From assembly GCA_963575645.1 (NCBI GenBank), contig OY754467.1, forward strand, positions 31,741,108 to 31,805,107: DNA of 64,000 nucleotides, in the 5' to 3' direction. Under the pieces are notes generated by a model. It ran no database searches and was not told the DNA's origin. It worked only from the letters and a program-made list of their open reading frames with translations. A program made the position numbers and the translations under genes. This stretch comes from Xanthostigma xanthostigma. Taxonomy: Eukaryota > Arthropoda > Insecta > Raphidioptera > Raphidiidae. Of the stretch, positions 4,909-62,290 are shown piece after piece (position 1 is the stretch's first letter; every line of letters begins with the position of its first letter).

Positions 4909-5562
4909 ACCATTCCAACCCACAAGTGGGGAATGGTACTAGTTTAGGTCAAAAATCACTTTTCAAAAATTTTACAATATCTTTTCGTTTTGAGATAGCC
5001 CGAATCCAAAAAACATATTTTTGGAAAAACTCTGTGCGTCTGTTAGCCTGTGAACACGATACAGGTCAAACGGATGAGAAGATTGAAACAAAATTTTGGG
5101 AGGATGTTTGGTATGCAAATATGAAGAGCCCTATTGTTTTTGGGGAAAATCGGCGCATGCGCAGAAGATATATATGCTAAAACGGTATTTTTTATATAAT
5201 AATGGTATACTTTTCATAACGGTTTATTATTCTATTTATTTTTTCAAGAAAGTTTTGTTTAAAAATGTTTTTTCTAAACTTTATAGTTTCGGAAATATTT
5301 TGAAAATAAAAAAAAATCATCCGCTCTTTTGTTTTATGGATCTGTCAGAAATAAACTAGTGAGGCATGCTTTGATTAATTTTTACCTGACGTGGAACATA
5401 CTATGTAGGTAACCATGGCAACGAATAGTTAATATCATATTGAATACTAGACATTACCCGCGTCACCTCATGCGATATCAGAAATTTTATTTTCTTTATT
5501 ATAATCAAATGTCAACATTTTTGAAGTTGGAATGGTCTCGTCGCCCAATTGGCTAAAATTTT
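4909..5562 (+). mobile_element. Hairpin-ended non-autonomous element, copy A
   Basis: This 650 bp element starts with a hairpin at 4910-4936 (CCATTCC..CCCAC aa GTGGG..GGAATGG) and ends near CCAATTGGCTAAAATTTTT. Its near-3' phrase GTTGGAATGG is the complement of the 5' CCATTCCAAC. Copies lie at 36387-36992 and, inverted, at 38456-39106. Body phrases shared by all three include GGAAAAACTCT, GATGTTTGGTATGCAAATAT and CTGTCAGAAATAAACTA. The longest ORFs (84 and 87 codons) are not conserved between copies, so it is non-coding. It is inserted in the mariner relict. Confidence 0.75.
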
Positions 5563-5571
5563 TTTATTGAA

Positions 5572-8265: not shown

Positions 8266-8745
8266 TTAACCGACTTCAAAAAAGGAGGAGGTTCTATGTC
8301 CGCCTGTATATTTTTTTTTTATGTAAGTTCACCGATTTCTCCGTCAATTATGGACCGATTTTCAAAATTTTTTTTATATTCGAAAGAGTGCATTTCCGAG
8401 GTGGTCGTCAGGACCTGATGGTGGAATCCAGAGAAATCGAGGGAAACTCTCAAATTTCAAAGGCACGCATATTTGTCCTACCCATTGCAATACTTTATCT
8501 AACACTAAAAAAAGAAAAATAAAAAGTAAAAAAAAAAAAAAAGTAAAAAATAATAATTATTGTTATTTTTAGAGTCGGTGTCACATCGGAATTCGAAAGT
8601 AGCAATTTAAATCTTACATGTCTCTAGTTCTCTGAATAGATTTCATTTTGGCTGACACTGACTCCAAAAATAACAATAATTATTATTTTTTACATTTTAG
8701 TGCATATTTTGAAGTCGGTTCAATTTTTTTGTTAAAAATATTTTA
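8266..8745 (+). mobile_element. CCGACTTCA-family element, copy A
   Basis: It begins TTAACCGACTTCAAAAAAGG and ends GAAGTCGGTTCAATTTTTTT followed by GTTAAAAATATTTTA. CCGACTTC and GAAGTCGG thus form short terminal inverted repeats. The body (about 8280-8520) aligns with copy B at 13090-13582, sharing CCGATTTCTCCGTCAATTAT and GAGGGAAACTCTCAAATTTC. The 3' part is a palindrome (8543-8582 with 8653-8692). There is no coding capacity. I recall close relatives in many Lepidoptera and other insects; this is not verified. Confidence 0.75.
8543..8692. repeat. 3' palindrome of copy A
   Basis: The arms are AT-rich (AATAATAATTATTGTTATTT, then TAGAGTCGGTGTC) and their inverted copy (GACACTGACTCC...), about 40 bp each, around a 70 bp loop. 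The loop end reads GATTTCATTTTGGCTG, the reverse of the CAGCCAAAATGAAATC found in the loop of copy B. Confidence 0.75.
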
Positions 8746-8769
8746 TTATAACGTACTATTAGCAGTGAT

Positions 8770-8890
8770 GTTTGTTCACAAGTGATCTGTCCATAATTTT
8801 GAAAATGAAGTGAAACCAGTTATTTTATAGGAGGTAGGTACGTGCAAAAATATCATATATATCTCGTGGGTAATGATATTACGACACATA
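8770..8890 (+). repeat. Dispersed repeat, TTTTATAGGAGGTAGGTAC family
   Basis: The order CTGTCCATAATTTTGAAAATG, TTTTATAGGAGGTAGG, CAAAAATATCATATATA, GATATTACGACACAT recurs at 63065-63190 and in parts at 41830-41930 and 61960-62290. No ORF or clear ends. In the 62.0 kb copy it is interrupted by another repeat. Confidence 0.5.
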
Positions 8891-8987
8891 ACCGGACCAA
8901 ACCATGACCGTGCTATGAACGTATCAGGCACGAAAAGAAACACGACACGCACTACTACTTAAGCCCACTGCAACGGATCGACAGCGT

Positions 8988-9074
8988 TTTATGCCCGTAT
9001 ACAACCCGTATGATGCCCGTATTCAACACGTATTATGCCCGTATGCAATGCATATTATGCTCGTTCGGTATCCA
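8988..9074 (+). repeat. 22 bp tandem repeat, ~4 units
   Basis: TTATGCCCGTATACAACCCG and its variants follow each other at a 22 bp period (three full units and a decayed fourth) inside the outer element. Confidence 0.7.
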
Positions 9075-9528
9075 TTCAATATGCAGCACCAAATATGCCA
9101 TTTTCGCATAGTGTTGCGTGGACACTTTGAAATGTTGCCAATTTTTTTTTAATCAAATATACTATTAGAAAATGAACTGTTAGACATCCGGTAATGATTG
9201 TCATGATTTTGAACGAGGAAGAAGAAAAAGAAAACCAAAAAAGACTACGCTATTGGATTCACGATTCTTTAAGAGAACGGAAAACCAAGAGAGAATATTA
9301 AACATTATTCATGTACTTAGTAATTGATGACGTACAAAAATTTGTTCAGTATTTTAGAATGTCTATAACATACCATTTTACCGAATTGCTGAAGAGGATT
9401 GAAAATGATACGCGGCTTTAACCCGTAGCATACCCGGTTGGACAACGTCGCGTGTCAAGCACGGAGCGTATCAGCACCGACAAAATATTCTAACCGTAGA
9501 TTTGTTGCCGGCCCGGTCATGGCACGTT

Positions 9529-10067
9529 AGGCCGTTTGTCCACCGCCGCCGTCACCGGGACATCATCGAGAACGAGATTACTTCGGGCCGAGAGTTTAGA
9601 TGACGTGACGGCGATCGTGTGTCCACCGCGAGCTCAGTTCTAGAGCTTCGTCGCGCCACGCAATTTTTCTCAAAATTTTATCTTTGGACACATCCTTTGT
9701 TTTATCCCACAAACAGTCTTTACTCTCTCCAAGTTCAATAAATGTATAGGTAAATATAATATTTTAATTTGTTAGCCATTTTTTTACAAATTTTATGATA
9801 GACATAACAAAAACCGGGCGAACGGCGCGGTGCGACGGTAGTGTGTGGACAAGAACAAACGTGTTTTTGTATTTCCGGCACATCGGCCCGTCATAAAACC
9901 GTGCCGAGTTCTAGCGGTCACGCCGAACTACTCGAAAAATCGGCGGCCGGGATGACGGCGCTCGGGTGACTGGCGTGCGGTGGACACATGGCCATAGTAA
10001 ATGTATGTATCGCTAAATCGGCTCCGTCATCTCGTTCTCGGTGACGGCGGCGGTGGCCAAACGGCCT
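9529..10067. mobile_element. GC-rich nested MITE
   Basis: The ends AGGCCGTTTGTCCACCGCCG (9529-) and its inverted copy AGGCCGTTTGGCCACCGCCG (to 10067) continue for about 45 bp through CCGTCACCGRGAACGAGA. The flanks CACGTT and CACGGT resemble a short target duplication with one change. The element is markedly richer in GC than the window and has no ORF. Confidence 0.75.
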
Positions 10068-10546
10068 CACGGTGTTAGTCAGTGACGGAACGGTCCAGTT
10101 TCATACTATTTCATGGAATGAATATTTTTTTGCCTGACACGTTCCTATTACGGTCATGGTATGACACTGTGTAGTGGGCAGAGACCTTAATGTCTCAAAA
10201 ATCCAAGCAGACTTTAAAAAATACTATTATTCCTTCGGAACCATATTGTTGACGATTCTTGTGTAGTGGAAAGCTATATCAAAATATATATAGCCAGTGC
10301 TATATCTTTCAATTGAAATGAAAAATAAACGTCTGACTTGACCCACGCGCCCGTTAAAAGGTTAAATATTATAACAAGCTAAACTTTGCCCAACTTTAAC
10401 ATTTCTTTTTTGCCGTCGTTTCTGTATTAAGAGTATGTCGTTGTATTTAGAAGTTTTCCTCGGATAGAGGGTTTAAATTTTTATCTGTTATGTGGGCTTC
10501 TAATATTTATATAGTTGCACATATCGCGTGTTCTGGAAATATACAC

Positions 10547-10720
10547 TTTTTAGGGATCCGTACTAAAAGAGTCTAACCGGAACCCCATCGTTGTGACAAC
10601 GTTGTCCGTCTGTCAGAGGCTTCTAGAGTCTAGAGTTCTTTACAAAATGAGAAATCGACTTGAATATCCTTGGTTCAAGCACGAAAATAATATTTAAAAA
10701 ATTGAATTTTTTTCTGAGAG
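10547..10720 (+). mobile_element. GGGTTCCGTACC-family fragment
   Basis: AGGGATCCGTACTAAAAGAG, CGGAACCCCATCG and GTTGTCCGTCTGTCAGAGG in this order match the 5' part of the elements at 28480 and 40949. Only the head is recognisable. Confidence 0.5.
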
Positions 10721-10849
10721 GGTGTCAACTGTCAATATAAGTATGCAAAATATTTATTTTCGACCTAGGCGTGTGCGGTACCATTGTGTAGAGTTCGCTA
10801 AGTAGAACACGACCGAATTTTAATACTAACTGTACCCGGCCACGCGTTT

Positions 10850-11060
10850 CTGTGGCACAGTTGATTTGCGTGTGTTGCTGTTACCCTCAACAGATGGTGC
10901 TCCCGTTGCCGTAAAATATAGCATATGTTGCTTTAATGTCATATCGCCATAAAATAATTAGTATAGCGTGTGTTGCTTTAGCGTCCAACATATGGTGCTG
11001 TTTTTCAAAAAAAGCATGTTTTCACCTGTCACAGGTGTGACATCTATACAATAGGCATAT
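10850..11060. repeat. Direct-repeat cluster TGTGTTGCTTTAGCGTC
   Basis: GCATATGTTGCTTTAATGTC (about 10922) and GCGTGTGTTGCTTTAGCGTC (about 10965), and the pair CAACAGATGGTGCT / CAACATATGGTGCT, form an imperfect direct repeat of about 45-90 bp. The family is unknown to me. Confidence 0.45.
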
Positions 11061-11780
11061 AAAACACGCGCGTATTCAAAGGCAATGTTGTGTTAAAATT
11101 TCAAAGCAAAGAATTTTCCGAGATTTCAGATTTTAAACAATATATAGATTATAAAATGTTATTGAAAATTGTGATTAGTAATATTAGAATTTTTTAGTTT
11201 TTTTTTTAGGGAAACCCTCAGTGCACTCGTACTTGATCAGTTATTTTATGTATACGACAGTACTTAATCTTGAAAAATGATGTGACGAAAAACGGGACAG
11301 ATATTATACCCAGTAGTGGGAGTAGTAATTATTGGATACATACGCAAAATGTTTACACTTACTATGAGAGTACCAACTGAATTCACACATACTAGTGGTT
11401 AAAAGCATTTCAAGAAAGGAGCAGCAACGTGAAACGTGAACCGGAAAATTTAAACCGTAGAACTACGTTCGTTAACGAGAGCGGTTCGGGGTATAAATTG
11501 ACAACGACTCATTTATACTACAAAAATTCCCGTTTTTAATTTTTAAATGTGTTTTGTGCAATGTTCCATAACAAGAGTTTCCAGAGAGCTAATTATAGTG
11601 TGCTAAATTCAGTTTAGACAAATTGTTGCGATGTTTTAAAAGAAAAAACAAAGAAACACAATATAATAACAATATAGTGTTTAACATCTTTCACAATGCT
11701 TGTGTACAGAATATTAAAACCAAAGGATATATTGCGAAAGTATTTTATATCGTGTGAACATAGAACTATAAAATATAGTT
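11061..11780. other. Intergenic, nothing recognised
   Basis: AT-rich sequence without convincing ORF, inverted repeat or repeat-family match. Confidence 0.45.
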
Positions 11781-11782
11781 TA

Positions 11783-12480
11783 CTAGCCACTACCCGCGAT
11801 TGCGATGAAACACGGCTCTACCGTATTGCAGTTTCGCCTAACGGGGTTGTATCCCGCTCGACAGCGATAACAGTAGTGGAGTCATTGGCTCCACCACCGT
11901 ATTACAGGCTTGCCGCAGCAAGGCTCCACCGTATTCTGATGCCATTTTCAAACACAATTTTTTAACCATTTTAATTTTGGGAGGAGGACGCACAACAAAT
12001 CACCAAAGTTTCATCGTAGTCGGAAGAATGGTATAATAATAAGTAGTAATAATAATAATAATGCTTTTAACGTCCGTTTTTAACTTCCCGTTATTTTCTA
12101 CAATTTTTGAACTTCAATTTAATTAATTGCAATGGGCGAATGAAGGAATTTTTAGGAAATTAGGATAAGGTAGGCAAATTTTGAGCACAGGAGTTTGACA
12201 GGTACGGCCATGGCCTTGAATAAGGAACCATCTCGATATTTATCTGGAATTATTGAGGGAAGTCATGAAAAACCTCAACAAGTACAGGAATTACCGTTTT
12301 TCGGCGAGAGGCAGTGGGAAAAACTCCCAACCACATCCTATCTCGCCGGGATTCGAACCCGGTACCTCCCGAATGCCAGTCTAGTGCTCTCACCGCTACG
12401 CCACCCCGGTCGGTGACGAATGGTATAAAAACGCATTCATGATTATATATTATACTAGCCGCTACTCGCGACTTCACATA
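11783..12480 (+). mobile_element. RTE-type tail split by a SINE
   Basis: From 11783 (CTAGCCACTACCCGCGATTG) the phrases GGCTCCACCACCGTATTACA and CAAAGTTTCATCGTAGTC follow the pattern of the 7325 repeat. A SINE interrupts the downstream part at 12037-12417, and a second head CTAGCCGCTACTCGCGACTT appears at about 12455. Confidence 0.5.
12037..12417 (-). mobile_element. Full-length tRNA-derived SINE
   Basis: On the minus strand the head contains a Pol III A box (TGGCGTAGCGG, 12393-12403) and a perfect B box (GGTTCGAATCC, 12349-12359). The body follows, then a TTATTATTATT tail at about 12045-12062. Exact 11 bp direct repeats GAATGGTATAA flank it at 12026-12036 and 12418-12428, so both ends are defined. 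The 3' half matches 32790-33055 (GTGCTCAAAATTTGCC, CTTATCC, CCTTCATTCGC, GAAAATAACGGGAA). Such an element would be mobilised by a LINE machinery in trans. The ORFs of 73 and 103 codons across it are shadows. Confidence 0.85.
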
Positions 12481-13080
12481 CGATTGAGCTGAAACACGGC
12501 AGTAACAACAATAATAGTGAAGACAATCGTATTGGTCTTGTCTAAAGAGACTGCGCCCCACTCAACAGGGTAAATCTTGCAAGTGTAAGTTTTGAACAAC
12601 TTCCACATATTCCAAATTTTTTCAATAATAAATTGAAAATGTAATAGATACTTTTGTAATTTTCTTAGATTAGAACAGGAGTCTTGAAAATGCTATGCAA
12701 ACAAAAGCCATTTTTAAAACCGAGAGCTCGTTTCGTTTGTCTATAGCGGACCTTCTCAATAACCGACAACTAGTCAAATAATTGGTTAACTCGCCATCAA
12801 AAACAAACATTATTTTGTGGAAAAATCTAAAGAAAAGAAATAGTTAATCTAAAACTAAGTGAATTGGTGTAATCGATTCTTTTGTTTTCTTTGCCGCTTT
12901 ACTGAAGAGGAATCGAGGATTCGCCGGAAGTGCATTCCAGATACATATACATAAATGGCTTAAAAAGGGCGAGTCACAGAAACTGTCCAGAAGAGAAGAT
13001 TTTAGCTGTCAGCGTTAAGAGTGGGGTAGTAAATACGTGACTAGTTGAAAATTGTAATAAGTCAGTCTTGACAAAAATAC
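12430..13080. other. Intergenic, mostly unassigned
   Basis: After a short RTE-type head near 12455-12500 I see AT-rich sequence with no gene or clear repeat. Confidence 0.4.
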
Positions 13081-13089
13081 ATAGGGTTA

Positions 13090-13582
13090 TTAACCGACTT
13101 CAGCAAAAAGGAAGAGGTTCTATGTTCGACTGTATATTTTTTTTGTTTCTTTTTTTATGTATATTCACCGATTTCTCCGTCAATTATGGACCGATTTTCA
13201 AATATTTTTTTTATTCGAAAGAGTGCACCTCAGAGGTGGTCCCATCGGAACCAAGTCAGGATCTGATGATGGAATCCGGAGAAATCGAGGGAAACTCTCA
13301 AATTTCAAAGGCACGCATAATGTTTTTTATGTATGGTCACCGATTTTTATTAGTGTTATATTAACACTAAAAAGAGAAAAATAAAATATTTTTAACAAAA
13401 AAATTGAACCGACTTCACACTAAGAAGTAAAAAAGAATTGCGTATTGAAATGTTTTGGAGTCGGTGCCAGCCAAAATGAAATCTATTCCGAGAACTACAC
13501 CGACTCCAAAATATTTCAATACGCAATTCTTTTTTACTTTTTAGTGTGAAGTCGGTTCAATTTTTTTGTTAAAAATATTTTA
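13090..13582 (+). mobile_element. CCGACTTCA-family element, copy B
   Basis: It starts TTAACCGACTTCAGCAAAAA and ends GAAGTCGGTTCAATTTTTTT plus GTTAAAAATATTTTA. The body matches copy A. The 3' part is a palindrome with equal arms of 85 bp, 13382-13466 and 13498-13582, around a 31 bp loop. The outer 45 bp or so of the right arm match copy A's end, but the inner arm sequence (AATTGCGTATTGAAATGTTT) is unrelated to the corresponding AT-rich arm of copy A. Confidence 0.75.
13382..13582. repeat. 3' palindrome of copy B, 85 bp arms
   Basis: The arms are reverse complements apart from a few mismatches (TAAGAAGTAAAA versus TAAAAAGTAAAA, GTTTTGG versus ATTTTGG). The loop contains CAGCCAAAATGAAATC in the orientation opposite to that in copy A. 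Confidence 0.8.
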
Positions 13583-14200
13583 TCCGCATTGCTATGCAAA
13601 AAGTCATAGGTACTAATTTATCGTTTCGTTTGGCAGTCGAGGCAAATCGTCTCCAGAGTTATTTGGAGTCGGGTAAATGGAAAGCATTCAAGGCAGCTTT
13701 TTGGAAAGCTCAGCGATGTTGCTGAAGCTTCACTCTGTATAAACTGCAGCAGGTATACAGTCCACACAAATATAGTGAAACTTGAAGTTTCTGTATAAAC
13801 TTTATTAAGTTTTATGTGTCCCCGGTGACACTAGACAGAAACAACTGGTGACTTTAACAGTTCGCTACATCAAATGTGTTGGTATTCTATTTACAGTTCA
13901 TAGACCTGGCTTACTCTGTAACAGAATCGAAAAACTGTCAATAATGACTGCCATCAAAATTCCATTTTAAATATTACAAAGTACGGTTTTTTTGTAATAT
14001 TATATTTATGCTAATTTACAATTTGCATATTGTATAATATGTATTATATTTTTATTCGGAAAATGGATACACATCGACGAAGTCGTCTGCATCTACTTCA
14101 ATATGCAGTATATATCGGTTATAACGACTTCTTCTCATATCCGATTGTCATTTTAAAACAACAAATGGACAACCATGTGAATGAGATGACACACGACAGC
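13583..14200. other. Intergenic, nothing recognised
   Basis: AT-rich without a supported gene; the 78-codon ORF at 14030 runs into the next repeat and has no recognisable motif. Confidence 0.4.
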
Positions 14201-19985: not shown

Positions 19986-22225
19986 CTAGTGAAATTCTTC
20001 ACTAATTAATGGCAGAACTGAAATCAAGTCGCGCTTTTTTTCTGTAGATATGGGAATTGAACCAGAATAGCATTTTTTAATTTGAGTTTCTATATTTTTG
20101 TTGCTTACCCCTCGTCGTTTTAAATTTAATTTCTTAAATGGCTCATCGTCGCTAAGAGAATTTTTGTACATAATAATACCAAGATCAGCTTTAGTATAAC
20201 GTAACCATTTCACCTTTTGCCATACAAACTTGTTGCCTTCTTGATCGACCTTACGGAACATAAAATGAGTTGTTAAAAGAGATGCAAAATCTAAGAAGCT
20301 ATTTTGATCCATTTCAATGACCTCAAATTGCTTTTTTGTTCCGGCTGTCCTCACGAACTGGTACCAGTCTCTGGGATGATGTATTTTTATGGAGGTCTTT
20401 CTTTTTTTTCTTTCAATCACGGAATGGTCGACGTCGCACTCCATGTGGGAATGTCCGGAGACAAGAAATTTGTGGTCAATGGTGTCAATATTTTCGTTTG
20501 AATACATGGATACTAAAAACATTACAGCAACGTGAGAGTTTTTGTTTTGTCCTCCGCATGTATCACTATAGAAAGTAATATGTTTTATGTCTTCAGTTAA
20601 AGTTTTTAAATGTTTAAAAAGACATGAAGCAATCTGGTTCCCGCCTCTCCCGCCAATAGCTTCATGCCACATATAGCAATATGGCTGATTGGAAACACAG
20701 TCGTGGACAGTCAAATTGAAAGTCCACAGCTGACGTTTGTAAAATGAAATTGATGTGCGGAGAAAAGGTGTCGGCAGGCACTGTTGGAGGTCGAAAGTAT
20801 AAACCACAGAAGATTTATCAGAACGAGATTTTTCTTTGTCCTCATCCTTTCTTTTAAAAGCCATATCTGCTTCCCTCTGGTGCTCCTCTGTTTCCTGTTT
20901 TATTTTCTCTTTTTCATCACCTTCTGTTACAGCTAATTTTGAAGCAAAAAGATCGCACTTATAACATGTGTCAGCCTTCGGTGATTTAAATTTAAGATTT
21001 AAACTTTTAAATATTTCAGAATATTTTTTAATAGAAACAGGATTTTCATATTTTTCACGGTATAACTGATACATTGTAGATAATGTTAAATCGCTGGAAA
21101 GATATTTTTTGGATGTGTCTCTTCTTGTGTAGTGGCTTTCGTAAGATGGAAAGCTACAGATGTGTTCTTTTATTTGGGCCAGTCTTTCTTGAGATATTAT
21201 GTTCGAAGGTGTATGCTTGCCTCTTTGATCAGGAGAAGTAATCCCACCAGGAGACTCAATCTTTTTTCTTATAACAGTTTTTATAAATTTATCACTCTCA
21301 CCAAATGTTTTTTTAAAACATTTTTGGCATACATCAGTTTTTTGAAAATCATTTAGTTCCAAGAAATAATTGTACGTCCATTGGCGATTTCTAACGACCG
21401 TTGAACTTTTGTTCAGTCTTTGAGTTTTTTTGTCATTTACTGTAATTAAACTAGCCATGTATGCGACTCTAAGATTGTAATTGCCTAGGGCCCAATACTT
21501 ATGGAAAATTTCAGATTGCTGTTCAAAACTAACCTTATTCTTGCACTGTTTTCGGCATTCTTCTAAATGCGAACAAACTCTTGGTTTTATAATTTTACCT
21601 TTCTTCGTTTTATATTCTTCATCTTGATTACGTTTTCTCTTTCTAGTTTCTCTAGTTTCCTTTATATTATCAGTTTCTATTTCCGACTCGTGATTTTCTT
21701 CAAGACGTCGTTCTATTTCTTCTGCTACCGCCTGAACATCAGATAAATCTGATTCCGATGGCTGGTAATTAGGATCAGCATCACTGTCATCAAATGGCTC
21801 GTTTTCAATTTCAATGTCAATAATATTTTCATACATATTTTTTACGGTTGTAATATCAAACATTTCAGTATTCACAAAACTGCTACCGGTTTCGTTGTTA
21901 GCGTATATTTTAAATATCTGCCCATCCACGAATTGCGTATTTACTTTTTCATTGGTGCTACCTAGAAAAATAATATAATTATTCGAAACGCGATTTAAAA
22001 AATGAAAACAAAGTTTTAAATAATTTACAGTTTATTAAGAACATTAATTTAAAAAACTCGGGTCGCAGGGCGAAACGATTGTTATTAAATTAAAGTTCTT
22101 AAGTGCAAATTATTTAAAACTAATGTAAATTGTAATTATTATTAATATTATTTATTATTACCTGAAGGTTCCGGTTCAGAGTTCCCACGATCAACCATTT
22201 CCAGCATTTTCCTGGCCCTACTCAT
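19986..22225 (-). CDS. Transposase, GGQNKN (DUF7869-like) type, two exons
   Basis: Exon 1 is 22225-22162 (MSRARKMLEMVDRGNSEPEPS), then a 200 bp GT-AG intron, then exon 2 from 21961 to the TAG at 19986-19988; phases agree and give 679 residues. An acidic N-terminus (about 60-125) is followed by a Lys/Arg-rich stretch. Cys-rich segments follow at CSHLEECRKQC (about 151), DVCQKCF (about 231) and DTCYKCDLFA (about 352). A catalytic-looking core has YTFDLQQ (Asp412), FYSDTCGGQNKN (Asp488) and HSHMECDVDHSVIE (about 525-538), which would supply the third acid. Beyond the TAG the same frame stays open for 25 more codons to TAA at 19908, encoding FYQNLITSNM... and an acidic end, so the TAG may be a recent nonsense change. 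It is unlike any host gene. Confidence 0.8.
21962..22161 (-). other. Intron of the transposase gene
   Basis: The donor CAG|GTAATA and acceptor TTTTTCTAG|G join exon 1 (phase 1) to exon 2 and restore frame through Gly22. It contains AAAAAACTCGGGTCGCAG (22051-22068), an 18 bp string also present at 17797-17814. Confidence 0.7.
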
Positions 22226-34044: not shown

Positions 34045-34325
34045 AAATTGATTTTTTTTTAATCTTTTATTTTAGCATCTATATAATCCAGAAATAAAAA
34101 TCCCAGACTATTTTGTCTGTTTTAAAGGACCTGATCCGCCCGAATATATTTAATTAATACGTATTCGCTAAAAATATTAACGTCTCGATAATGATAATTA
34201 TGCGTAGCCATACCTACGAGAGAGAAAGTTTATCGAGATGCTTATATTTTTTGCGACAAAATAGTTTGTGATTTTTATTTCTGAATTATATTATAAATGC
34301 TAAAATAAAAGATTTAAAAAAAATT
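34045..34325. mobile_element. Palindromic MITE, ~60 bp arms
   Basis: TTTTATTTTAGCATCTATAT on the left is inverted on the right as TTTTATTTTAGCATTTATAA. AGAAATAAAAATC and ACTATTTTGTC follow on both arms. Its right end abuts the TTGGTTGTCTGTAAAGTCGG repeat. Confidence 0.65.
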
Positions 34326-34530
34326 GGTTGTCTGTAAAGTCGGTTTACGGACGATAGTTTTACGTGATAACGTATTCCGCTCGAATATCATATTTAATAA
34401 TTACGCACAGGGTCAGGCGGAACGTTAGGAACGTTACACTTTTTCGTGCATGCAGCCGGTGTTTCATTTTTTTATATTGACGTGATTCATCAATTTATAA
34501 GACGTTATCACGTCAAAATGTGAAACCCGA
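34319..34530 (+). mobile_element. TTGGTTGTCTGTAAAG repeat, copy 1
   Basis: AAATTGGTTGTCTGTAAAGT through TTTACGTGATAACGTATTCC to GACGTTATCACGTCAA. It matches 62005-62190 at about 90%. TTACGTGATAACGT and ACGTTATCACGTCA form inverted ends. It is non-coding. Confidence 0.65.
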
Positions 34531-36386: not shown

Positions 36387-36992
36387 ACTCAATTCAGTTG
36401 GTAATGACCTATATTCTATAGCATTACCAACTGAATTGAGTCTATTTACAAAATTCACTTTTCAATATTTTACAATATTTTTTCGTTTTAGGGACCCCTG
36501 AATCCAAAAAACACATTTTTGGAAAAACTCTCGTGTGTTTGTTAGTCTGTCTGTGAGCACGATACAGGCCAAACGGATGAACGGATTGAAGCCAAATTTT
36601 GGGAGGATGTTTGATATGCAAATATGAAGAACGATATTGTTTTTGAGAAAAATCGGCGAATGCGCAAAACATATAACTATGTTTTTAATGGTATACTTTT
36701 TAAAACGGCTTATTATTCTATTTATTTTTTCAAGGAAAAATCAGCTGTTCTTTTGTTCTGTATATCTGTCAGAAATAAACTAATTAAGCATGCTTTGATT
36801 AATTTTTACATGACGTGGAATATATTATGTAGGTAAACATGGCAACAAATAGCAAATAACATATTGAATAATAACCATTACCCATGTGACCTCACGCAAT
36901 ATCAGAAATTTTATTTTCTGTATTTTACTATGTCAAATGTCAATAGTTTTGAAGTTGGAATGATTCCGTCGCCCAATTAGCTGGAATTTTTA
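36387..36992 (+). mobile_element. Hairpin-ended element, copy C
   Basis: The body matches copy A (4909-5562), with a shorter middle. Its 5' hairpin is a different sequence: ACTCAATTCAGTTGGTAATG (36387-36406), a 15-base loop, and its exact reverse complement (36422-36441). The 3' end reads GTTGGAATGATTCCG then CAATTAGCTGGAATTTTT. Confidence 0.75.
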
Positions 36993-39106: not shown

Positions 39107-39660
39107 AAAAATAATTACAAATTTAAATTGTGTGTAAATGTAATTGTACTGTAAATTGTTGTGATTTTTTTAACTGCAGCCTGAAGTCACGCAAGACTTA
39201 AAATTCACTATTTTGTCAGTTGGTCAAATTGGGGCGGTTTTATTGTTATCATGTATTTTTCTAGCATGTGGGTAGAATGGATTGATGGTACTTTGTAAAT
39301 AATATCATTCTCGTTTGTTTTGACTGTCATTTGTTAGTCAGTTAACTAATTTCTCTATATTATACTATCGCAGCTGTATTCCTTGTTGCGTTCTCTTTAT
39401 TTTTACTGCCCTCTGTTAACGAGCTGACTGGTTCCTCTAGTGTTCCTTGTTTTGCCTTTTCATTTCTTTTTTATTATACTATATAGTACCTACCGTAGTT
39501 GTGTCTTTTTATTTGTTTTTTACTGTCATCTGTTAGAGAGTTAGCCGTGGGCCCCCAAGTGTTAGAGCCCACAAAAATTGCATTGTTATTATGCTTTTTA
39601 AATACTTTTTCATTAATAATGAACATATATCTATTCTGAAATTTGATTAACGTCTAATTA
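39107..39660. other. Intergenic with a hAT-like end at ~39547
   Basis: GTGGGCCCCCAAGTGTTAGAG resembles the interior edge of the MITE at 48562-49369 (GGCCCCCAAGTAGTGTTAGC in reverse), so a partial relative lies here. No gene. Confidence 0.35.
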
Positions 39661-39668
39661 GAACTCTT

Positions 39669-39904
39669 CAATAAATAAAATCATCCACCAATTTTTCAGA
39701 GAATTATATTAATAAAATATAATATATAATAATAATAATTCAATACATTAACGTTTCGGTCAGGATTTGGATATTTATTAATTTTTATATTTTTTAGATC
39801 AATTATGAAGAAAATCCAGACCGAAACGTTTAATGTATTGAATTATTATTATATATTTTTGTTAATATATTTGTCTGAAAAATTGGTCGACAATTTTATT
39901 TGTT
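39669..39904. mobile_element. Palindromic MITE with CGTTTCGG core, copy 1
   Basis: Arms (39669-39770 and 39810-39904) are inverted: AATAAATAAAATYRTCSACC, AATTTTTCAGA, AATTCAATACATTAACGTTT then CGGTC. The centre is AATTATGAAGAAAATCC. The outer arm matches 56290-56360 and 56510-56620. Confidence 0.75.
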
Positions 39905-39972
39905 GAACATATCTATTTCATTATATTCTATGGGATAGTAAAAATAGTTAATATTGATGGCTATCATTACCA

Positions 39973-47986: not shown

Positions 47987-48112
47987 TTACAATTTCTATA
48001 CAACTGTATATAACTGTTTACATGATAACGCGCGTTCATGCGTTACATGATAACGCGCGTTGAACGCGCGTTATCATGTAAACAGTTATATACAGTTGTA
48101 TAGAAATTGTAA
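47987..48112. repeat. Perfect palindrome, 52 bp arms, 22-base loop
   Basis: The arm 47987-48038 (starting TTACAATTTCTATACAACTG, ending AACGCGCGTTCA) and the arm 48061-48112 are exact reverse complements. The loop repeats TTACATGATAACGCGCGT from the arm. A smaller perfect inverted pair CGCGCGTTGG g CCAACGCGCG follows at 48114-48134. Confidence 0.9.
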
Positions 48113-52600: not shown

Positions 52601-55600
52601 GATATCTATTGAAAAGAAGACTGTTAAACAATGGTGGGCAAATATACCCATATGTTGGCAGATTCTGTGTGTGATATGTATGGATTAAAGAAATGATTTT
52701 TATGTTACGAGTAATTCTTATAAATACAAAATGTTACCAATAATTAATTAATATTTATTTAAGAAAGTTCCCAATACCACTTAATGAATGTATCCCATTT
52801 ATATTAATTAATTTAATGTTTTTAGTTTCCTAACATAGTCTCCAAAGTAAACCTTATTCAAATCCATGCTCTATAGTGTCAGTCTACAAGCAAAGGCACA
52901 ATAGTCTTTGAATGTTTTTACTTGTCAATTTTTTACTATCGTCTGAAGTCAAATTATTTTTTTTTTCTCTAAGAGCGGTGTAATTTACTTTACATATTAT
53001 ATTTAGTACCACAAAATCTTTGATTCTGAATTTTTTAGAAAATTATAATTTCTGCGATAGCGTTGATTGCTTGTAAACTGACAATATACAAAACGGTTGC
53101 AAAACATAATAGTACTATTATCATTAAATTAAAAGTCATAATTGTGTTGCCAACTTAACATTTCTATGTATTTGTAAGTGATTGCAGAATAGTAGCTTAC
53201 CTAAAGGTCTAAATTCATCTTGAGCTCTATAAAATTCAGCGAGATCACGTCCTGAACACAAAGGAGTATCAACTTGAAGCGTATGATCAAAATTTGAATA
53301 ATCTACTTCATATCCTTGCCTTTCTTTATTATAACTTACAACTGGATCAAACCTGTGACCCCACAAAATTTCCGTAGCCAAATAGCTTGACCTGGCTTGG
53401 GTAGTCTGACCAGTCGATTCGATCGTTCCTTCTAAAATGACTACAATTTCAAACCTTTCTTGCAACAAATCAGCCGCGGAAAAATTATATAACGGCGAGT
53501 CTTCATTTATTTTATGGACTATTGTCAATGGCCAAATAAAAAACAGATCGTTGCTACAACCATCAGCTCCGACTTCTAGTTCACTCTGAAATTGACTTAA
53601 TACTTCGCCTTCTTTGGTGGTTCGTGAACGGATTAATTGGGCTCTGATATTAGCACCGATAATATGCGATTTGCGCATGTCGCCCACACGGAACATGAAG
53701 CACAATTGGCCATCGCGTTGACAGATTACTGCGTTTCTTGAGAATAACAAGGTTTGAGTTCGATGTTTGGGTCTGGTCATTTTGGCGAAAACAATGCCGA
53801 CCATGAAAGCTTGAATCATGACACCAGTGATACTTTGCATGCACATTATGAAAATAGCCTCTGGACATTCTTCGGTGGTACTTCGAGAACCATAACCTGA
53901 AAAATTTTATCTGTAATCTAATGTACGAAAATTGCCTCAATTTGAATGAAATATTCAATATCAACTCCAAGATAAGAATATTAAAATTTATTAAAAAATT
54001 TCTGAAAATATGAACACTTTAGTGACACTTTAAAATTATGCACCAAAAAACGGGAAAATTGGTATTTTTTGCTATTTTTATTAATTCATAAGAAGAGTAC
54101 GGAAGTAATTTTGTGAATAAACAAAAAAAATACAGCAAATCCGAACAATCATAAATGATAATTATTCCATTAACAGTCAATCCAATACGGTGCTTTCTAA
54201 AATGACTAAAATAACCCTTGTACATTTAGTATAACTTTTTTGATATATCTAGTAAACATTTTAGAAATCCTCCCCATTTTAGAAAACTATAAAATAATGA
54301 CAATTAGAATCATCCAAAATTCTTAATTACTAACATTATATAATTTCACAACAATAATAATAGATCCTTACCTATGGTATGTTGTGTTTCTATACTAAAC
54401 AAAAAACAGGAGGCAAACGAATAAATCTCATTTATGCAAGGCGTCCAGTTGGCATCTTCTTGATTCGGCGGTAAATGCTGTGGTTCAAGATCACCGTGAG
54501 TGAAGGCAATCAACCACCAGATGGTGGCGAAACAAAGCCACGATAGAATGAAACTTGCTGCAAATACCAAAAGCGTCCAGCGCCACTGGGTATCGACCAG
54601 CGTTGTGAAAATGTCCTGCAGGAATCGGACCCGACGACGTGATATCCGCGATTGTAAAACATTGCAATCACCGTTCTTGAATACGGCGCGTCGACGAATC
54701 TTTCGACTTACGCCATAACGAAATCGGCTTCTAGTGGAAGAAATAAAAAAGAGTTAAATATCCTGAAATTATCCACAAAAACATAGCTTTTAACGCTCCA
54801 AAGAGTATAATAATCATTCTCAGTTAAATCATGTCAATTCGTAATGTTATATTAAAAATCTAAATCCCGACTTTCATCATAACTAGGTGTCCACACCAAT
54901 AATAATATCTACCATGCCAACAACTAAACAATTCTCTAATATATGATTATTTGCTCAAATGAAACTATTTTTTCTTAGCAAGATCAATTAATTTTCTAGG
55001 CTCTATTGGAGTAGAATCTTTAGTAATCTAGTATTAATTTATTAATGCATTAAAGCTGTATAATTTTGAACAGTAAATTAAACACAAACATAAGATAAAC
55101 ATTGATTAGTTATTTAAAAATTCACGGATGCTATAAAAATAATTTTTGATTCAAATGCTATTTCAAATCTTTACACAATAATTTTAAGACATTAATTTCA
55201 TGTACCTAATCTAATGGGTAAGTTTTCAAAAATAAAAGGATGATTAGTTCGCCTTGTTTTGAATTTTGAGAAAGAACACGTTATTTCGTATCATTAAGAA
55301 ATAGTAGAAATAATTTTCAGCTTAATTTTGTGCAGTCAATCAACGCCAGTACATTTCGTTAATATTTGTTTAATATCACGAACTTCACTCTTTGCTTTGC
55401 TTTTCATACATTCGTTGATCTAATCGAAAAAACAAAAAATACTTAAAGTAATAATAATAATAATAATTATTATTATTATTATTATTAAAATACTTAAAGT
55501 AGAGGAGCACCTTCTGACACAATCTCCCAAACGTGATTTCGCAGGATAATATACCCCCGGTGATAATTCACCCGGACTTCCAGGTGTATATGGTGATCCG

Positions 55601-56260: not shown

Positions 56261-56479
56261 TCAAATCTTTGATTAATGTCTGTTTAGTACTCTTCAATAA
56301 ATAAAATTATCGACAATTTTTTCAGAAAATTATATTAACAAAAATGTATAATTATAATTCAATAAATTTACGGTTCGGTCCAGATTTGGAGCTTTTTCAG
56401 AATTGAGCTAAAAATATAAAAATTAATTAGTAAGTACCTGGGTGACCGAGCTTTGCTCGGAAAGTTAAATAAAATACCT

Positions 56480-56612
56480 ACTCAAATCTTTGATTAACGT
56501 CTCATTAGAACTCTTCAATAAATACAATTATCGACCAATTTTTCAGACAATATATTAACAAAATATAATTAATACATGTCTGAAAAATTGGTCGATAATT
56601 TTATTTATTAAA
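56480..56612. mobile_element. Small palindromic relative nested at 56.5 kb
   Basis: ATCTTTGATTAACGTCTCAT, TCTTCAATAAATACAATTAT and ACCAATTTTTCAGACA are followed by the inverted TGTCTGAAAAATTGGTCGAT. It lacks the CGTTTCGG core. Confidence 0.65.
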
Positions 56613-61964: not shown

Positions 61965-62290
61965 TTATGACGTAAAAATCAGCTATTTTATAGTAGGTAG
62001 TTGAAAAAAATTGGTTGTCTGTAAAGTCGGTTTACGGACGATAGTTTTACGTGATAACGTATTCCGCTCGAATATCATATTTAATAATGCACGCACAGGG
62101 TCAGGCGGAACGTTACGGCGGAACGGAACGTTACACTTTTTCGTGCGTGCAGCTGGTGTTTCATCAATTTATAAGACGTTATCACGTCAAGAAAGAAAAT
62201 ATATATCTTGTACGTAATGCTATTATTACACGTGTGATTGTTAAGTTCGTTGACGCTAGTGTAACACAATGTCACAACTCGTAACATAAT
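61965..62290 (+). repeat. TTTTATAGGAGGTAGG-family copy interrupted by insertion
   Basis: TTTTATAGTAGGTAG ends at about 62000, and AAAATATATATCTTGTACGT, TTACACGTGTGATTGTTAAG and GTCACAACTCGTAACATAA resume after 62195. The order otherwise matches 63095-63210. Confidence 0.55.
62005..62190 (+). mobile_element. TTGGTTGTCTGTAAAG repeat, copy 2
   Basis: It matches 34319-34530 from AAATTGGTTGTCTGTAAAGT to GACGTTATCACGTCAA. A short duplication, GGAACGTTACGGCGGAAC, is specific to this copy. It splits another repeat, which shows it as a mobile unit. Confidence 0.65.

Follow-up and report, generated by a model that had tools for sequence, protein, structure and literature searches.

Elements of the DINE-1/HINE type, the non-autonomous Helentrons, are short and non-coding, have T-rich borders, and carry subterminal inverted repeats of which the 3′ one is internal (PMC2374699, PMC4067079). 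DINE-1-like elements occur in many Lepidoptera (PMC4067079), and the same paper cites six Bombyx and Rhodnius miniature inverted-repeat transposable elements (MITEs) (PMC3845634) among DINE-1-like elements that had been annotated as MITEs. Yang and Barbash reported that the DINE-1 3′ stem is unlike among species yet self-complementary and suggested compensatory mutations (PMC2374699). For RNA genes, Monttinen and Loytynoja (2022) described how template switches give multiple compensatory changes, insertion within a stem half, and inversion of the loop (PMC8794818). Here we describe two copies, c1 and c2, of an element that looks like DINE-1/HINE, located in a 64,000-base stretch of contig OY754467.1 of Xanthostigma xanthostigma (Raphidioptera), hereafter the window. 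The copies share a body and a 3′ end, but the arms of the palindrome near the 3′ end match within each copy and differ between copies, and the loop between the arms is inverted. The observation is real, and it agrees both with a mutation process that is already known and with the stem turnover reported in DINE-1-like elements.

The two copies agree with DINE-1/HINE in being short and non-coding, in their T-rich borders, in their subterminal inverted repeats with an internal 3′ one, and in having a 3′ stem of variable sequence, which in DINE-1/HINE varies between species (PMC2374699). They differ from it in the position of the palindrome, which lies inside the 3′ subterminal repeat here and a few bases outside it in DINE-1/HINE; in the length of the arms (46-86 nt compared with 7-11); and in the distance from the 3′ repeat to the edge, 27 nt here compared with 38-60 nt in mite HINEs. 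With the hairpins of PMC8794818 the palindromes share matched multibase changes in both stem halves, extension of the stem, and loop inversion, which there arise via single switches. Those hairpins, however, are short stems in RNA genes, whereas c1 and c2 are transposon copies with long DNA palindromes, between which a 30-base stretch of the loop is inverted. Canonical Helitrons such as Helraiser and Lep1 also have a hairpin near the 3′ end, and in Helraiser about 90% of activity survived when only the stem was exchanged, whereas altering the loop did as much harm as removing the hairpin (PMC4778049). Canonical Helitrons have 5′ TC and 3′ CTRR, however, whereas c1 and c2 lack these and have subterminal inverted repeats; moreover, the loop, which matters in Helraiser, is the part that is inverted between c1 and c2. 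Galileo/Foldback-like elements resemble the two copies in that the length and structure of their inverted repeats change from copy to copy, with template switching invoked, but they have long terminal inverted repeats and a P-superfamily transposase (PMC4168063), neither of which is seen in c1 or c2. An earlier note on this DNA knew of no description of this arm turnover. The process is in print for RNA-gene hairpins (PMC8794818), and a 3′ stem that is unlike among species but self-complementary is reported for DINE-1 (PMC2374699); no account of the arms of this particular element family was found in a literature search that covered few subscription journals.

Two Element Copies Share a Body and a 3′ End

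Both copies point the same way, with 4.8 kb between them, in a window with 33.5% G+C. Their extent and common parts are:

8266-8746, plus strand: element copy c1, from alignment to c2
13090-13583, plus strand: element copy c2, from alignment to c1
8266-8471, plus strand: shared body of c1, aligned to 13090-13319
13090-13319, plus strand: shared body of c2, aligned to the c1 body
8472-8500, plus strand: linker of c1, unlike that of c2
13320-13362, plus strand: linker of c2, part of which resembles the c2 body
8711-8746, plus strand: 36-nt 3′ end of c1, identical to 13548-13583
13548-13583, plus strand: 36-nt 3′ end of c2, including the 3′ subterminal repeat, identical to 8711-8746

In the body alignment 193 of the 204 aligned columns are identical and there are 28 gap positions. 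The 3′ ends agree at 36 of 36 bases and the base that follows differs. Thus, the shared body that the earlier note described stands, as do its starts at 8266 and 13090, whereas the common end, given there as the last ~45 bp, is an identity of 36 bases, and the 3′ edges move to 8746 and 13583. The linkers ahead of the palindrome are dissimilar in c1 and c2. Bases 13323-13346 of the c2 linker form a direct second copy (91.7%) of the 24 body bases 13151-13174 and lie next to a small hairpin. No open frame of at least 110 codons overlaps either copy. Judged from the assembled sequence, an assembly artifact was rejected, as flanks, linkers, loop lengths, and body bases differ between c1 and c2. We also rejected the idea that only one copy has another MITE inserted into its 3′ end, as the inner stem, the loop stretch, and the 3′ end are common to both.

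Palindrome Arms Match Within Each Copy

The palindromes consist of the following arms:

8538-8583, plus strand: 5′ arm of c1, 46 nt, 93% complementary
8653-8698, plus strand: 3′ arm of c1, 46 nt, pairing with 8538-8583
13381-13466, plus strand: 5′ arm of c2, 86 nt, 98% complementary, with the element 3′ end repeated in it in inverted form
13498-13583, plus strand: 3′ arm of c2, stopping at the element 3′ edge

The spacing between the arms is 69 nt in c1 and 31 nt in c2, and the c2 palindrome, with its 86-nt arms, proved longer than the earlier note had it. Both fold better than dinucleotide-shuffled sequences, with z −25.9 for 13381-13583 in c2 and z −6.9 for 8501-8746 in c1. Inverted repeats as such are not rare in the window, which holds 62 pairs of at least 24 nt within 300 bases; among the 25 longest, several are overlapping pairs of one simple repeat.

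The arm stretch shared by the copies and used for comparison spans 38-40 bases (8543-8580 and 8656-8693 in c1, 13427-13466 and 13498-13537 in c2). Over this stretch the edit distance is 2 within c1 and 1 within c2, compared with 9 for all four between-copy pairs, which bears out the claim that the arms are self-matched. In the alignment of the four arms, 30 of 40 columns are constant, 7 group by copy, none groups by side, none crosswise, and 3 fall in other patterns. Eight of the nine differences between the copies, two of them indels, are mirrored in both arms and lie in four clusters. The ninth is a one-base gap that is also mirrored, but the base concerned is unequal between the two arms of c2. 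When four arms were simulated as evolving independently, with 20,000 runs per rate, no run at a per-branch rate of 0.03, 0.06, or 0.12 gave 7 within-copy columns, and one run did so at a rate of 0.20.

Independent mutation under selection for hairpin pairing, with compensatory change pair by pair, has been proposed for DINE-1 3′ stems (PMC2374699), and the activity that Helraiser retained after exchange of its stem (PMC4778049) implies that a stem may drift provided that it stays paired. As a source of the present arms we regard it as very improbable: it would have to supply eight mirrored differences, two of them indels, at a body divergence of only about 5%, and the simulations, which contain no selection, fail to give the pattern.

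The arms were also said to differ between the copies. They do, by nine edits, but "different" overstates the case, as they align over 38-40 nt with anchors. Without the shared anchors the arm cores show an edit distance of 9, a weak likeness that is matched by 6.5% of 5,000 shuffles and, in two sets of 5,000 pieces drawn at random from the window, by 1.3% and 5.7%; for a narrower core the likeness of c1 and c2 is no better than that of shuffles (P 0.32). The arms of c1 and c2 are best read, from these alignments, as homologous sequences that have drifted apart, although, given the weak likeness without anchors, the arm core may have been replaced locally. That the c1 core is the reverse of the c2 core was rejected (score −3.0, under the shuffle mean of −1.1). 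The arms differ more than the body: they have 7 substitutions in 38 positions, or 6 when only mirrored ones are counted, and the body has 11 in 204 (P 0.012 and 0.033, respectively); the core alone has 7 of 21 (P 0.0004), a core that was picked after the data were seen. Since the body (193/204) and the loop (29/30) are far closer than the arm core, the change is local.

As a control, one other family was measured (39656-39717 with 39857-39918; 56293-56333 and 56514-56549 with 56572-56612). Its within-copy distances are 11/62, 6/41, and 2/36, and its between-copy distances range from 3/36 to 6/41, so that within-copy likeness is not consistently in excess in this single family, for which the arm pairing at 56 kb is ambiguous.

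The Loop Is Inverted Between the Copies

The loop stretches concerned are:

8625-8654, minus strand: 30-nt loop stretch of c1, matching the c2 loop only when reversed
13468-13497, plus strand: loop stretch of c2, partner of 8625-8654

With one loop reversed, c1 and c2 agree at 29 of 30 bases with a local score of 28, the maximum in 2,000 shuffles being 13; in the forward sense the score is 7, which is chance level. The opposite loop orientations seen in the earlier note are therefore correct. The loop measures 75 nt in c1 and 31 nt in c2, 44 bases more in c1. With symmetric arms, an inversion of the loop is equivalent to an inversion of the entire palindrome, and hence a single recombination or inter-strand switch suffices.

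Matched arms and an inverted loop would also result if the inverted arms, as part of the chromosome, underwent ordinary gene conversion and recombined with each other, as happens in larger palindromes. This explanation calls for no special transposition step, and the arm and loop data fit it. Arms of 38-86 nt, however, count as short for homologous recombination, and we consider it quite unlikely.

The degree of likeness in the loop and the 3′ end also bears on an exchange of modules, in which two old subfamilies with long-diverged 3′ palindromes would have been joined to a similar body by recombination or rolling-circle copying, without any recent rewriting. The dissimilar linkers before the palindrome speak for such a junction, and new 3′ ends have been described in bat Helitrons (PMC4778049). 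Yet neither the loop (29/30) nor the 36-nt end (36/36) is less similar between the copies than the body, which makes an old module unlikely unless only the arms evolve fast. Moreover, the arms would still require a process that keeps them matched. We therefore hold module exchange to be unlikely.

The c2 Palindrome Reaches the Element 3′ Edge

The 5′ arm of c2 contains an inverted copy of the 36-nt element end, and the 5′ side of c1 has none. The outer edge of the c2 palindrome, 13583, is the very base at which the homology of c1 and c2 ends, and the flanks beyond it are unrelated. The outermost six bases of the arm, ATAAAA, are also part of the sequence that c1 and c2 share before the palindrome, an overlap of the kind that a switch at a short match would leave. 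Copying in place would not be bound to halt at the element edge, and these data therefore suggest that the 3′ end was copied onto the 5′ arm of c2 before or during insertion at this site. Gene conversion between the arms would, alone, leave the extension of the c2 5′ arm to the exact 3′ edge unexplained.

Proposed Mechanism

We consider it probable that, in a DINE-1/Helentron-like element, one arm was rewritten from its partner through an inverted template switch and that the loop was turned either by a switch or by the arms recombining. Differences would first arise in one arm, and an inverted template switch would then copy the changed arm onto its partner. Such recopying would erase the differences within a copy, which would stay self-matched and drift from its sister copies. 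In c2 the copying would have taken in the 3′ end of the element, giving the 86-nt arm, and the turn of the loop would go back to an inter-strand switch or to recombination of one arm with the other. What we infer is the family class and the template switch, including when it took place and in which direction (from the 3′ arm to the 5′ arm in c2). The pattern fits the footprint of a template switch, that is, clustered changes from one reverse-complement copy, as far as two copies can tell. That the arms are kept alike by correction within the palindrome, through snap-back synthesis or template switching, both of which the earlier note had named as ways of rewriting the arms, is the best-supported reading. 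The stronger statement in that note, that both arms must have been rewritten together, falls away: changes in one arm followed by a single recopying of the other, in only one of the two lineages, are enough, and the arms need not have been rewritten at the same time.

Several points weigh against this template-switch reading. With only two copies, neither polarity nor rate can be obtained, and the arm core of c1 is simple AT-rich sequence, in which short matches are cheap. In RNA genes, compensatory change very rarely comes together with loop inversion: the 6 such cases among 9,931 are no enrichment over simulation, whereas loop inversion alone was found in 69 cases and was enriched (PMC8794818). 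Gene conversion between the arms, or an exchange with another family member, would look similar. Instead of c2 having gained an outer arm, c1 may have lost one by decay in the A-rich stretch 8507-8553. Finally, since a change of the loop is costly in Helraiser (PMC4778049), a freely turning loop fits badly if it has the same task here, unless the palindrome of c1 and c2 has another task or none.

Recopying could also be a part of transposition, in which case a single-stranded intermediate with a free 3′ end at the element edge would offer the template for snap-back copying. We regard this as quite doubtful. If true, arms would be renewed, extended to the exact edge, and their loops turned during mobility and not by slow chromosomal mutation, and every active lineage would have its own near-perfect arms. 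The "flip/flop" of parvovirus terminal hairpins is a comparable behavior. As they stand, the two copies illustrate a known mutation process and measure nothing, neither its frequency nor its direction being obtainable from them. Were the pattern to hold across many copies, it would be a natural record of template switching in long hairpins, for which the body would serve as an internal clock, and the frequency and direction of arm recopying, as well as its link to transposition, would become measurable.

Subterminal Repeats and Element Class

The class of the element was judged in part from its ends, where c1 carries a pair of subterminal repeats:

8269-8281, plus strand: 5′ subterminal inverted repeat of c1, the 13-mer ACCGACTTCAAAA, with its partner at 8707-8719
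8707-8719, minus strand: 3′ subterminal inverted repeat of c1, exact reverse complement of 8269-8281

The 3′ repeat of c1 is internal, 27 nt ahead of the 3′ edge. In c2 the pair AACCGACTTC is kept, and 11 of 13 bases match the c1 13-mer at both ends. Subterminal inverted repeats of 12-15 bp with an internal 3′ one, a feature of DINE-1/HINE, are thus present. DINE-1/HINE elements insert between T and T without target duplication. Both copies can be read as inserted in this way, at what are two AT-rich sites only, and sliding the edges gives at most a chance-like duplication of 4 bases in c1 and 3 in c2, at different edges. DINE-1/HINE elements also have a short stem-loop beyond the 3′ subterminal repeat; a 6-bp A/T stem in the last 26 nt of c1 is equalled by 14.7% of 2,000 shuffles and by 3.5% of 3,000 random 26-mers of the window. 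No GTCY tandem was found on either strand of c1 or c2, only single words on the given strand (3 in c1, 1 in c2); a GTCY-rich 5′ microsatellite is a feature of DINE-1 in Drosophila and not one of all HINEs.

Collectively, the internal 3′ subterminal repeat, the lack of a long open frame, the T-rich borders, and the lack of a consistent target duplication make the element look like DINE-1/HINE, a non-autonomous Helentron, on the strength of its sequence. We speak of likeness and not of membership because of the 27-nt spacing, a terminal stem that may be due to chance, and the lack of a GTCY tandem; a member would also share its termini with an autonomous, RepHel-coding element of its genome. Two other classes were rejected. 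The edges TTAACCGACTTC and TTTTAT do not have the 5′ TC and 3′ CTRR of a canonical Helitron, which inserts between A and T, and a MITE of the terminal-inverted-repeat type with target duplication disagrees with a 3′ repeat 27 nt internal and with a duplication that is inconsistent between the copies.

The inner stem of the palindrome resembles the subterminal repeat itself. In c2 the match is 12/13 (13453-13465 and 13499-13511), reached by none of 300 shuffles, and in c1 it is 11/13 (8567-8579 and 8657-8669), reached by 1% of 300 shuffles and also by four unrelated places in the window. On this likeness, the palindrome arms may be shortened copies of the element placed head to head. Elsewhere in the window, a repeat pair (34314-34476 and 62001-62173, 99% alike over 88 bases) holds AAAGTCGGTT, close to the subterminal word of the element.

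Search for Further Copies

Within the window, blastn (E up to 1e-3) returned only c1 and c2 along with short poor or A/T-rich pieces. Exact patterns of the body, the 5′ end, and the 3′ end had no match in viral contigs, two exact element patterns had none in the genome contigs searched, and blastn of c2 against phages and plasmids gave no match. The 16-base loop word occurs at 24 viral loci; because blastn alignments of c1 and c2 to these span at most 24 bases, we take the matches to be due to chance. A literature search by sequence words yielded no family name; the match in PMC3422249 is a primer, and the other papers matched were set aside by their titles.

Other Features of the Window

Near-perfect hairpins with short loops lie at 2697-2871 (78 nt, 99% complementary) and 47987-48112 (52 nt, 100%) and are perhaps foldback or MITE-like. 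A dispersed repeat of about 600 bases has two copies, 4941-5563 and 36439-36991, that are 77-92% alike in pieces. On the minus strand, 12345-12404 gives a weak transfer RNA (tRNA)-like match (29.9 bits against an Rfam cut-off of 29; none by ARAGORN), possibly a short interspersed nuclear element or a tRNA remnant. A 681-codon open frame at 19986-22031, minus strand, has a DUF7869 match (E 1.8e-6) and is possibly transposon-derived. The window also holds, at 53136-54753 on the minus strand, an inward rectifier potassium channel gene in pieces.

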